From Ecdyonurus torrentis (taxonomy: Eukaryota > Arthropoda > Insecta > Ephemeroptera > Heptageniidae), in NCBI GenBank assembly GCA_949318235.1, contig OX439133.1:10052847-10116846 (forward strand): DNA of 64,000 nt, in the 5' to 3' direction. This document shows, piece after piece, positions 44,707 to 54,475 of the stretch. The position numbers were made by a program, and so were the translations under genes. The first letter of the stretch is position 1. Each line of letters begins with the position of its first letter. The notes beneath the pieces are model-generated. The model did no database searches, was not told the origin of the DNA, and saw nothing but the letters and a program-made list of their open reading frames with translations.

Positions 44707-47700
44707 ATGTCTACTAATAATGAATTATTGGAACTTACTTCAACCATACAAGTCTTTAATGATATTATATATTTTGTAGATCAAGCAAAAACAAACTTAA
44801 CCTCACTTAATCGATTCAAATACGGTGATACAACTGGAGTCATATTCTGTTTGAAATCACTTTGTGATGAAATCAAAAAATTAATCAGCACATCTTTTGA
44901 TAAAATATTGAAATTTAAAGAAGAAGAAGTATATGAAAATGTAGAATTAATAAGAAAAGAAATTGATGAATTAGTTGATAAAACTAATGAAACAAAAAAC
45001 AAACATGATGCATACATAATCGAGGTAGAAAACCTCCGGAAACTGAATGAAAATAAAAGTGTAGTTGAAAATCAACTAAAAACATGCAACATTTATCTTG
45101 ATCAAGTTAAAATTCTGGTGCAAGATTCCATTCTGTGTTGTAAAAGTATTAAAATTACTTCTGATACAAGGTTTGGCTTTTATTTATTTATTATATTATT
45201 AACTTATTTGTAAACAAAATTTACAGTCCAGGCTCGAACTGGCCGTAAGAGCAAGTCCGCAATTGCAAACGTACCCTCCCCCTGTTTGGAGGCCTCTAAC
45301 GCCCAAAAAGGGGCGTAACTAGGGTGTTACCCCTCCTTTATGGCCCCTAAAGAGGGTGTTACACCCATTTTGCGGACGAGGCCTCTTGATTGCCAGTCCG
45401 AGCCTGGTTCTGTCTTACTCTCAACTCTCTTATATGGTTCTTAATCATAGGTATGTCGAGAGTATAGGCATATGAGCAGCATACATATAAGGTGTATGCT
45501 GTTGGTATGAGTTTTCTTAGAAGTATTTGTGGTAAAACGTAAAACAATATAGATAGGGTAAGGAATACTTGGGTGATGGAGAAATGTGGAGTAAAAGAAA
45601 CTGTGACTGAGAAGTATGGGAACAGTGTATTACGGTGGTTTGGTCATGTTGAGAGAATGGGTGATGAAAGAATAGCAAACCGCAGGTATTTCATAGTAGA
45701 GTGGATGGAAGGAAAGATAGAGGCAGGTCTAAAACATCATGGTCTGAGGTGGTTGAAAGATGTTTGAAAAATAAGAATGTACGCAGTTGAGATGCAAAAG
45801 GAGATGTATGAAACAAGGTATGAGACTAGAGGAAGCAAGTGAAGTTTGTCAGGATAAGAAGTTGTGGAGGTCTATCACTTGAGATCAGGCTAAAAATATC
45901 TGTGTTGTAAGCTGACCCTATCTACCCTGAAAGGGACTATCATAATAGCGTCATGAAATGAATGTTGTAACTTATTTGTTAAATAATAATAAAAGTTCTT
46001 CATATTGGGTTTAAAATAGAAATGCATATTATATATATAATAATAATAATAAAAATAAACAAGTAAGTATCCCCCAACTAAAATAAAGTTATTATTTCAG
46101 TGATCAATATGAGCTATCGACTCCAAGTAAACTTGCCTATGTTATCATGTTTGTGAATCTCCTTTTCAAGACAGAGGAGGACACATTAGAGTTAGAACCT
46201 GACATTAAAGCAGCAGAGGAAACTTTTGTCAAGGAGAATGGATTTGATCTGCAAAACATTGAGGATTATAAAAACTTGACGAAAAAAGAAACTGAAAAGA
46301 AAATTGATGAAAGTGAGTTGAATAATATTATGTGTGTGAGTGTGTGTGTGTATTTGTATATATGTATATATAATTACAGTAATATATATATATATATATA
46401 TATATATATATATATATATATATATATATATATATATATATATATATATATATATATATATATATATATATGTATGTATGTATATAGTAAAAAATATTTA
46501 TAAATAATTAGAAAATAAAAAATGGGAGGAGATAAAGCATTAAAAATATCCTTTATTGCAACATAAAATGAAGCCATTTGGATGGCACAAAAAAAAAAAA
46601 AAAAAAAAAATAGCATGTCAGAAACATTTAAGCATAACTTAAAAAAGGGATAACTTAACAAAATCTTTTCCATGTAACATATTACATGAGACAACCAAAC
46701 TTACATACTGTAGTATCTCTTTTGACCCTTCAGCACTCTTACAAACTGAAACTATAGTGTGAAAACTTGTTAAGTAATCAACTAGAAACTGCACTACAAT
46801 TTCTATTGAGGACATGGGTATCGTGACGTTATGAATTCCTTGCCTTCTCTTCAATTTTTGAACACCAGTTTGTAAGGAAATAGTAGGGCCGAGGGACATA
46901 ATATGTTTATATGTATGATATGGTCATTATTATTAATTTTACGTTTCTGATTTAATTTTTTGAAGCCAGGATTCCTTTAACAAAATTTTCAAATATATGT
47001 GATTTTTCTAAGATATTAAGATACGTCTATTAGTAAGGTACTGTAAACCCAAAGAGCTATGAGCTATGAGTAAACCGCGCAACTAATATCCCCCTCTAAT
47101 CCCTTCGCGTCTTTACATTGCCTGAACAAAATGCTCCTATCTTATTAATTAATTTTATTCATTAAACACACTTACGTTAGTGTACAAAATAACATAAATT
47201 TACAAAATAATAATAATATTAAGTACTCTGAAATTATTTAAATACATTTATTAAATTATTCCTGAGCGTACGCCGTCAGACTAATGCTGCGCTTAGTACA
47301 ATTCATTACGCTCCTATCTTATACATAAAAAAAAAAAAAAAAAAAAAAAATGCAGACCAGATGTTTCCGATTTTGGGGTACAGTTTCTCTGTACTGTAAC
47401 TTATAGAAACCAATACATTTATCTTATAAAATAATTTTATTCTTACTTGCAGTAAAAACTACCAATTTTGAGAACTACAGTTCCCTTATCATTGTCTACG
47501 ACAGTCATGGAAGCAATGATGGTAAATTGATACCAAGTGATGACGAACCTATTGCAATTACTAAATTTTGGGAAGCATGTGATCAAAATCCTAGTCTATT
47601 TAACAAACCAATCATAATTATCATTGAAGTAAGACTTTTTTTTATAATTTTTATAATATATTCAATGTGAGGCTTTTCAATAAAAAAATATCTGAATACA

Positions 47701-53700: not shown

Positions 53701-54475
53701 CGACGTCGGTCCCCTACTCCCTTGATTTGTATAATATAGCTTTCTATAGTATTTATATTTTAAAATATTCGAATATATTGTATTTAAGTCAATTATATTA
53801 AGAAAAAATAAGGAAAAATAAACGAGAGTTAAAATATTAATAACAATTATTTTCATTGAGGGAAACTAAAAAAATTTTAGGGGTTAATTTTATTACATAT
53901 ATTCTAAAAGAGATTGTCATGAATCAATAGGTATGCAAATTTCTAAGTTTTGAGTTTATAAAGTATTTTTAATTCAAATTTGAAATTACGTTATGGGCGG
54001 TAACTTTTTCCTATGCCCACATGCATAAGCTGCCACCCATGACTTACTTTTTCGATTTCAAAAAATTAACTAAAAATACTACTCAATAAACTCAAAAGAT
54101 AGAAATCCACTTTATTATTCGATTCAGAGGACAAAATCTTTGCTCCTTTACAACATTAATAAAATTACGCCTTATTTTTTTTCCTCAATAAGTTAATTTA
54201 GTTTCAAAAAAACTGTATTTTTAATCAGATAATAACAGTACAAATATGAAATGGTCAGTTAATTAGTTAAAATAATAATAAATATTTGTTTTTAAGGTTG
54301 GTGTGACACAATATGTGACGTCATAAGAAAATCCCCTGGAAACTCCTTTGGATTGGTTCGTTTGTTAACAGAAGCAATGAGAAGACCAACGGCATTAGCT
54401 TCAAAAAATCCACCACATATCCAGAGCAGTCTTAGATTGAAGCTTGTTATTCCAGATAGAGAAAAAAAAATGTAA
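44707..54475 (+). CDS. Tandem-caspase protein: coiled-coil prodomain, caspase unit, degenerate caspase unit
   Basis: Nine coding exons: 44707-45170, 46101-46312, 47453-47628, 47989-48100, 49004-49253, 49545-49702, 50999-51162, 52488-52602 and 54297-54475. Each junction is GT-AG with agreeing phase, giving 609 residues. Residues 1-154 are helical and charged, probably coiled coil, and not a CARD or death-effector domain that I recognise. Unit 1 (about 155-404) has [11 protein letters not shown] (catalytic His 244), EACRGG (Cys 286) and a small-subunit part, [20 protein letters not shown] to [15 protein letters not shown]. Unit 2 (about 405-609) has [32 protein letters not shown] where SHG is expected, [15 protein letters not shown] (Cys 514), a [10 protein letters not shown] helix region and [15 protein letters not shown]. 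Caspases are cysteine proteases that cut after aspartate in cell death and inflammation. Unit 1 may be active; unit 2 looks catalytically dead. The start is the second ATG of the exon, since the first meets a stop at once. No AATAAA appears until about 55070. Confidence 0.88.
45229..45406. mobile_element. hAT-type MITE, family E, copy 2
   Basis: CAGGCTCGAACTGGCCGTAA to TGCCAGTCCGAGCCTG, matching the copy at 20434-20609 throughout. The flanking 8-mers (TTACAGTC, GTTCTGTC) match at only half the positions, so the duplication is decayed. It lies in intron 1 of the caspase gene. Confidence 0.8.
45440..45900 (+). pseudogene. LINE C-terminal remnant
   Basis: Plus-strand reading gives [13 protein letters not shown], a stop, [13 protein letters not shown] and [20 protein letters not shown], followed by more stops. 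[10 protein letters not shown] is a hallmark of the C-terminal region after the reverse transcriptase in several LINE families. Several stop codons make it a dead fragment, in intron 1 of the caspase gene. Confidence 0.75.
46331..46480. repeat. (TG)n then (TA)n microsatellite
   Basis: A short GTGTGTGAGTG block just after the exon 2 donor leads to about 45 TA units at 46383-46470. It starts within 20 bases of the splice donor GTGAGT. Confidence 0.9.
46680..46940. repeat. Family G repeat, copy 1
   Basis: It shares TACAATTTCTATTG, TATCGTGACGTTATGAATTC, CAGTTTGTAAGGAAATAGTA and GAGGGACATAATAT with 61770-61985. It lies in intron 2 of the caspase gene. Confidence 0.55.
47725..47895. repeat. Family M half copy
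   Basis: GTGGGCATAGGAAGAAGTTG, AGTGACGTCATTTCAA and TTTTAGAACATGCAGTAAAA match the right half of family M. It lies in intron 3 of the caspase gene. Confidence 0.45.
48107..48903. repeat. (TTTC)n microsatellite of about 800 bases
   Basis: Around 200 TTTC units with two single-base slips near 48427 and 48668. It starts six bases after the exon 4 donor (GTAAAGTTC) and fills most of intron 4 of the caspase gene. Phenylalanine/leucine/serine and lysine/glutamate open frames are artefacts, although the transcript-strand frame happens to run on from exon 4. Confidence 0.97.
48904..48975. repeat. (TA)n microsatellite next to the exon 5 acceptor
   Basis: About 36 TA units follow the TTTC array directly. 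Only about 28 bases separate it from the exon starting at 49004. Confidence 0.95.
49280..49332. repeat. (TG)n(TA)n microsatellite
   Basis: Begins about 25 bases after the exon 5 donor of the caspase gene and fills the start of intron 5. Confidence 0.9.
49738..49990. other. Intron 6 start
   Basis: If the donor at 49703 were not used, the frame would read on to a TAG at 49735-49737. A near-by AATAAA at about 49777 means a shorter protein ending here is possible as an alternative product. Confidence 0.35.
50030..50590. other. GC-richer island in intron 6 of the caspase gene
   Basis: About 550 bases of clearly higher GC, preceded by a T run at 50020-50038. It contains CCGTGGGACGTGGGGTGGGG, CTACTCGAGATATAAACCGT and GCAGACGAGCCCCGGAGCGA. 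No long open frame or tRNA-like promoter pair was recognised. Probably an inserted retroposon or other element. Confidence 0.4.
51574..52275. mobile_element. Family C element (copy 4) containing a nested family B element
   Basis: The left part, TTAAAGGTGTAGAACACCTT to about 51854, and the last 35 bases, ending TCAAGGTGTTCTACGCCTTTAA, belong to family C. The middle is a family B element. Intron 7 of the caspase gene. Confidence 0.85.
51855..52239. mobile_element. Family B palindromic element, copy 2, nested in family C
   Basis: AAAGCCCTTGTCAACTTACT to AGTAAGTTGACAAGGGCTTT, with two internal blocks CGTATCTGACGTCACAATGT and ACATTGTGACGTCAGATACG. At 385 bases it is a shorter relative of 4215-5351. 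A short direct repeat GACAT flanks it. Confidence 0.85.
52643..52983. mobile_element. Family D MITE
   Basis: TATAGGGTGGTTTCATTCAT to AATGACGTCATGCGTACACA. Contains the shared block GACCATTGATGCTGTTAACA. Starts about 40 bases after exon 8 of the caspase gene. Confidence 0.8.
53079..53149. repeat. Poly(A) run followed by poly(T) run
   Basis: About 33 A, then ATCGATTGAAAG, then about 25 T. The two runs can pair as a hairpin. Intron 8 of the caspase gene. Confidence 0.9.
53386..53724. mobile_element. TTAA-type element, family I
   Basis: TTAAGGGAGTAGGGCACC at the left and GGTCCCCTACTCCCTTGA at the right are inverted ends with TTAA/TTGA outside. About 335 bases with no coding capacity. Only one copy noticed. 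Intron 8 of the caspase gene. Confidence 0.65.
53863..54185. repeat. Family M palindromic repeat, copy 3
   Basis: Starts AAAAATTTTAGGGGTTAATT, centre GGGCGGTAACTTTTTCCTAT paired with GCATAAGCTGCCACCCATGA. Intron 8 of the caspase gene. Confidence 0.6.

Follow-up and report, generated by a model that had tools for sequence, protein, structure and literature searches.

Animal proteins that join a dead caspase domain to a second caspase domain in a single chain have been described before. Caspase-X of the coral Acropora comprises two caspase domains per chain, one without the catalytic His and Cys, and belongs to a small lineage family with four genes in A. millepora; its order is inactive-active, its active domain is described as typical in all respects, in HeLa cells the dead domain acts as a restraint on the live one, and a model of the protein resembles the FLIP/procaspase-8 pair (PMC4715348). 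Mammalian caspase-16 carries duplicated caspase exons with matching splice phases and one dead and one live domain, the dead one being an N-terminal prodomain, and is likened by its authors to caspase-8/FLIP(L) (PMC12198278). In Mytilus coruscus, 4 of 47 caspases have two CASc domains (PMC10967218). In the FLIP(L)/caspase-8 system the partners come from two genes, assembly is driven by death effector domains (DED), and the pair of pseudocaspase and caspase gives one active site (PMC7586951). The gene described here belongs to the mayfly Ecdyonurus torrentis (assembly GCA_949318235.1, 503 Mb) and lies in a window of 64,000 nucleotides, positions 10052847-10116846 of contig OX439133.1 (C12); positions without a contig name are those of the window. 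This nine-exon gene is called copy A and its paralogues in the same genome B, C and D. It probably encodes one chain of 609 residues, comprising a helical-looking N-terminus, a dyad-bearing caspase unit (unit 1) and a dead caspase-fold unit (unit 2) that would pair with unit 1 in cis and set its activity.

Copy A is like caspase-X in its two domains per chain, one of them without the catalytic His and Cys, and in the small size of its lineage family; with caspase-16 it shares caspase exons repeated with matching splice phases. Chains with two caspase domains, one dead and one with the dyad, are predicted here from the genomic exons of three genes. The order of the domains is active-inactive, the reverse of the dead N-terminal and live C-terminal domains of caspase-X and caspase-16, and, unlike the typical active domain of caspase-X, unit 1 has a changed S1 pocket. 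Unlike caspase-16, the mayfly gene has an unrelated-looking N-terminal region in addition to its C-terminal dead unit. It differs from FLIP(L)/caspase-8 in being a single chain without DED: a Pfam scan of the exon 1 region of A, B, C and D gave neither the tandem DEDs that mark FLIP(L) nor any other domain above cut-off. The original prediction had proposed two caspase-type units in one protein, comparable in logic to the caspase-8/FLIP(L) pair, and this is supported, with unit 2 lacking the catalytic dyad. It also knew of no animal protein with this exact layout; that none is described is contradicted by the coral, mammalian and four M. coruscus proteins, which have two caspase domains. Two caspase domains per chain with one dead are known, and what appears new is the active-inactive order, the insect host and the changed pocket; among the open-access titles and passages listed, neither a two-domain caspase of an insect, nor the active-inactive order, nor the changed pocket was found.

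After splicing, copy A presents an open reading frame of 609 codons that starts with the ATG at 44707 and is closed by the TAA of 54473-54475, the terminal stop being the only one, with AG/GT at every internal exon boundary. The nine exons, all on the plus strand, measure 464, 212, 176, 112, 250, 158, 164, 115 and 179 bases. Exon 1 (44707..45170) encodes the helical-looking N-terminal region, residues 1-154; an AG acceptor stands 10 bases upstream of its ATG, and a 5' non-coding exon or trans-splicing further upstream is therefore possible. Unit 1 starts in exon 2 (46101..46312, entry phase 2) with the caspase p20 region and continues in exon 3 (47453..47628, phase 1), which contains SHG with the catalytic His codon at 47506-47508 and ends in IIIIIE. 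Exon 4 (47989..48100, phase 0) has ACRGG, within EACRGG, with the catalytic Cys codon at 47992-47994, and exon 5 (49004..49253, phase 1) covers the p10 region, an in-frame stop lying two codons past its donor. Unit 2 starts in exon 6 (49545..49702, phase 2) with a first strand and helix. Exon 7 (50999..51162, phase 1) reads SGG for the caspase SHG/THG, the His being replaced by Gly at codon 51043-51045, and ends in PKVFLNLG; exon 8 (52488..52602, phase 0) reads NCSS (in LGNCSS) for the caspase ACRG, with a Cys codon at 52491-52493 that differs in the paralogues; exon 9 (54297..54475, phase 1) carries the p10 region, including the last strand, and the stop TAA.

The junction phases of copy A are 2,1,0,1,2,1,0,1, giving entry phases 2,1,0,1 for exons 2-5 and again for exons 6-9. 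This repeat, as well as EACRGG, LGNCSS and the phase-0 introns (GAA|GCT TGC in unit 1 and GGG|AAT TGC in unit 2), is found where it had been predicted, and the same eight phases recur in two paralogues. The proposed likeness of paired exon sizes holds for 176/164 and 112/115, which are near-equal, and less well for 212/158 and 250/179, which are further apart. A Cys after the phase-0 intron of both units is present in copy A as claimed, but that of unit 2 is not a conserved feature, the corresponding residues being LK in B and PS in C. Several repeats were also observed in and beside the gene. Intron 4 consists mostly (48101-48900) of a TTTC microsatellite, in which 800 bases contain 197 TTTC words and after which comes a TA run; several of its frames are open, and gene-finding programs could be misled by it. 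Intron 7 (51571-52278) contains nested inverted repeats, whose arms measure 152, 105 and 32 bases with 80-91% complementarity and which are probably MITE-like (miniature inverted-repeat transposable) elements. The gene is bordered at its 3' end by a dispersed repeat: 166 bases at 54483-54648, starting 7 bases past the stop codon, have an inverted copy at 1560-1718 with 93% identity.

Unit 1 (residues 156-404) is by sequence a caspase domain of peptidase family C14A. It matches PF00656 with an expectation value (E) of 6.2e-15 (55.9 bits for a cut-off of 21.4), and a profile of the three sequences from A, B and C finds caspase-3 in the PDB at 1.3e-18. Against an alignment of caspases, formed by 116 rows from the canonical caspase of the host genome and the best 120 of 247 database matches, the same profile gives 99.3% in hhalign with a score of 135. 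All four loci (A, B, C and D) have retained the catalytic His and Cys. Matches of unit 1 in NCBIfam were all under the cut-offs, and a tblastn search against plasmids gave no match, a result that is not informative.

Unit 2 (residues 405-609) is likewise read as homologous to the caspase domain, because of its profile alignment, the controls on that alignment and the positions of its introns. The three-sequence profile aligned with the caspase alignment at 96.8% in hhalign (score 70.0, E 2.9e-10 for one comparison), over 178 columns that span caspase positions 7-240 of 241; with query and target swapped the values were 94.6% and 55.9. Match columns alone scored 66.4, whereas the reversed profile scored 14.9 and 60 column shuffles had a mean of 14.1 (sd 2.3, maximum 20.2). 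The introns provide an independent test, since the hhalign alignment is blind to them. In one canonical caspase gene of this mayfly (C4, 22.05 Mb) the domain is entered in phase 2 and contains introns of phase 1 (LQK|L), 0 (IIQ|ACRG) and 1 (TVE|GYYAWRN), and a second canonical gene (L008) has two readable introns, of phases 1 and 0. Placed on the C4 gene, the first (EQ|G) and third (RAE|G) introns of unit 2 coincide exactly and the second (LG|N) is at most one codon off; the chance of such a coincidence is about 1e-6 by a rough formula in which positions are taken to be independent. At the catalytic His, unit 2 has Gly in A, Arg in B and Ala in C, so that the residue is lost in all three genes. 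No catalytic Cys is aligned in any of them; by intron position copy A still has NC, and the paralogues read LG|LKKS (B) and LG|PSMN (C) across the phase-0 intron, so that on this count two of the three genes have lost the Cys. Unit 2 is accordingly classed, on these predicted residues, as a pseudocaspase that has lost its catalytic dyad.

At least three genes of the family have two units; A and B are on C12, and C is on C11. Paralogue B (C12:13463887-13478299, minus strand) has nine exons and a single open frame of 600 residues, and paralogue C (C11:17811408-17815182) has nine exons and a single open frame of 647 residues; all eight junction phases in both are identical to those of copy A. Locus D (C11, 17.82 Mb) presents exons 1-5, the sequence beyond being N in the record, so that unit 2 is out of view. 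C and D are in tandem with about 7 kb between them (C11, about 17.81-17.82 Mb). The first exon of B and C is similar in size to that of copy A, at 476 and 503 coding bases, but shares only 27% and 21% amino acid identity with it. When the genome was searched with unit 1, 26 matches had E <= 10. The top 12 comprise four in copy A, four at C12:13.47 Mb, two at C11:17.81 Mb and two at C11:17.82 Mb; the match that follows them has an E of 0.09. The search with unit 2 gave nine, of which four fall in copy A, three lie at C12:13.46 Mb and one lies at C11:17.81 Mb, the ninth being weak and outside these loci. This lone match outside the family (E 0.77) resembles a caspase p10 exon (PF00656 E 0.0062, below cut-off) and adjoins a caspase p20 exon (E 3.7e-06). 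That the two blocks form one gene is best supported by the conservation of the layout across a four-locus family on two contigs. The frames of A, B and C are intact and without internal stop. Both units are under protein-level constraint, second codon positions being more alike than third positions in each: between A and B, unit 1 has identities of 0.63/0.80/0.48 at the three positions, and unit 2 has 0.61/0.70/0.47.

The tree (36 rows) places unit 1 and unit 2 each in one branch with 100/100 support, and in both branches A and B are together and C apart. The two-unit gene thus predates the divergence of A, B and C, because each unit forms a single clade and both repeat the same gene order. 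The original prediction of a four-exon cassette duplicated within the gene is neither supported nor excluded. In an equal-depth test with 20 triples of insect caspases drawn at random, unit 2 scored a mean of 45.7 (29.8-58.5) and unit 1 a mean of 98.0 (84.7-115.9), whereas unit 2 against unit 1 gave 14.6 (hhalign 0.2%), which is the noise level. In the tree, which is limited by long branches according to its own warnings, forcing the units together costs 0.71 log-likelihood units (approximately unbiased test, p-AU 0.477), and the stem branch of unit 2 has 3.95 changes per column. Chance as the cause of the phase repeat is rejected, given the identical phases of the paralogues and the positions of the unit 2 introns. 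The repeat is nevertheless uninformative on origin, because it would also arise from the tandem fusion of any two caspase genes, the canonical C4 gene having 2,1,0,1 on its own. Unit 2 may be a copy of exons 2-5 or a second tandem caspase gene joined by splicing, and the data leave the choice undecided. An in-frame stop follows soon after the exon 5 donor in the three genes (after RYT in A, RYFYICIK in B and RLDII in C); it may be the end of an old gene, though a stop within such a distance (2-7 codons) may also be due to chance in AT-rich DNA.

The pocket of unit 1 departs from that of known caspases, in which the P1 aspartate is held by two arginines and a glutamine; MALT1 is acidic at those three sites and cleaves after arginine (PMC4357240). 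The residues considered were Arg64, Gln161 and Arg207 (caspase-3 numbering), which are kept in 111, 115 and 110 of 115 reference insect caspases, a set made of matches to one effector caspase and in which initiators are poorly sampled. At the glutamine, unit 1 has E, D, E and E in A, B, C and D, and at the first arginine T, S, T and K. At Arg207 it has T or I in A, a gap or V in B, and A in both C and D, with no aligned arginine, although the alignment is uncertain at this site and B has an arginine one place off. All three residues that bind the P1 aspartate are therefore changed, and unit 1 lacks the basic pocket. It has probably lost the preference for aspartate, and may not cleave after it, because Glu or Asp replaces the Gln that helps to bind this residue. 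The acidic residue at the Gln site is shared with MALT1 (Asp462; PMC4357240), but MALT1 is acidic at three S1 positions and unit 1 at one, the fold family that unit 1 matches is that of the caspases, and the Ig-like and death domains that mark MALT1 were absent from a Pfam scan of the whole 609 residues. A gain of basic P1 preference is a guess, as two of the three positions are not acidic. A bolder combination, an insect protease derived from caspases that has given up cutting after aspartate, cuts after a basic residue like paracaspases and is fused C-terminally to a permanent pseudocaspase, the covalent dead twin of the single chain acting as a switch, is doubtful.

Caspases require a partner for activation. 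In the reading that we favour, unit 2 would be that partner, pairing with the live unit 1 inside the same molecule through its last beta strand, the surface through which caspases dimerise; pairing by the last strand is described for caspases and MALT1 (PMC4357240). Once paired, unit 2 would set the activity of unit 1 as an activator, a brake or both, the model for such control by a dead partner being the action of FLIP(L), there from a separate gene, on caspase-8. The C-terminal segment is aligned and kept in both units, and the stretch between the last strand of unit 1 and the first strand of unit 2 is about 17 residues long, as read from the alignments. That both units are expressed from one mRNA, fold, pair within the molecule and have proteolytic activity, and in which direction control runs, is what we infer from the sequence.

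Several observations weigh against this reading. Unit 2, alone or as a three-sequence profile, found no caspase match in HMMER searches of Pfam, NCBIfam or PDB sequences, and its relation to caspases emerged only with a deep caspase profile. Single unit-2 sequences reached hhalign scores of only 27.9, 30.9 and 30.8 (17.5-32.5%), and because of these low values its homology depends on the profile of three. Unit 2 is without the helix 2 stretch and the SWR loop (YYAWRNPLEGSW), which bears one S1 arginine, and its fold may be incomplete on account of these losses. Both gaps, and the strong divergence seen in the stem of the tree, would suit an inert or structural tail, a relic of fusion, with unit 1 dimerising with unit 1 of another molecule. 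We regard this as unlikely, given that the frames of unit 2 are conserved, that its second positions are conserved nearly as well as those of unit 1 and that the last strand is kept in three genes. A search of the protein database, other mayflies included, with the full chain and the three-gene profile gave no match at E <= 10, a weak negative in which scoring was limited to the 7992 candidates with the most words in common.

Copy A also shows signs of possible alternative ends that are unique to it. An in-frame ATG seven codons upstream of exon 6 (49525-49544) would permit a start with unit 2 only, and is absent from B and C; read-through of the exon 6 donor (49703-49780) leads to a stop, with AATAAA about 40 bases beyond. 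That ATG, together with the stop past exon 5 in all three genes, would fit two adjacent genes, unit 1 ending at the stop and unit 2 being a separate decoy pseudocaspase, and separate inactive caspase homologues are mentioned for Diptera (PMC3141678). Such an arrangement is distinctly improbable: the exon 5 donor and the exon 6 acceptor are in phase 2 in three of three genes, the introns between them are just 291, 1196 and 500 bases long, and the open stretch before exon 6 has no in-frame ATG in B and C. Finally, both units might serve as a protein-protein scaffold without proteolysis, unit 1 being disabled by the changes in all three sites of its pocket. The His and Cys kept in unit 1 of every locus yet lost in unit 2 speak for selection for catalysis, and make a pure scaffold very unlikely.

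The gene family stands within a large caspase expansion for an insect: at least 70 exon-sized caspase-family matches at E <= 0.001 were identified in the genome, many of them clustered (C21, C17, C8, C12 at about 1.3 Mb, and others). The canonical caspase is nearest, among the matches listed, to proteins of the mayflies Cloeon dipterum (61%), Neocloeon triangulifer (59%) and Ephemera danica (58%). A second, unrelated-looking two-domain caspase was found on C26 at about 40.49 Mb (positions 643-2229 of locus L001), an intronless frame of 528 residues with two full tandem caspase domains (PF00656 E 1.1e-48, two stretches). The catalytic His is absent from both of its domains (TYG and TFG) and the Cys is kept in SAC and NAC; it is perhaps a retrocopy. 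Elsewhere in the window, reverse transcriptase frames at 10931-12409 (plus strand) and 12903-13958 (minus strand), with PF00078 E values of 3.5e-30 and 2.6e-19, are back-to-back LINE-type (long interspersed nuclear) elements.

The changed S1 pocket gives a sharp prediction on specificity, and, if the proposed pairing within the chain is true, the mayfly genes would provide a simple system of fixed stoichiometry for asking if a pseudocaspase activates or restrains its partner. With an in-chain partner placed in the order opposite to that of the coral and mammalian cases, the arrangement would have evolved in animals more than once.

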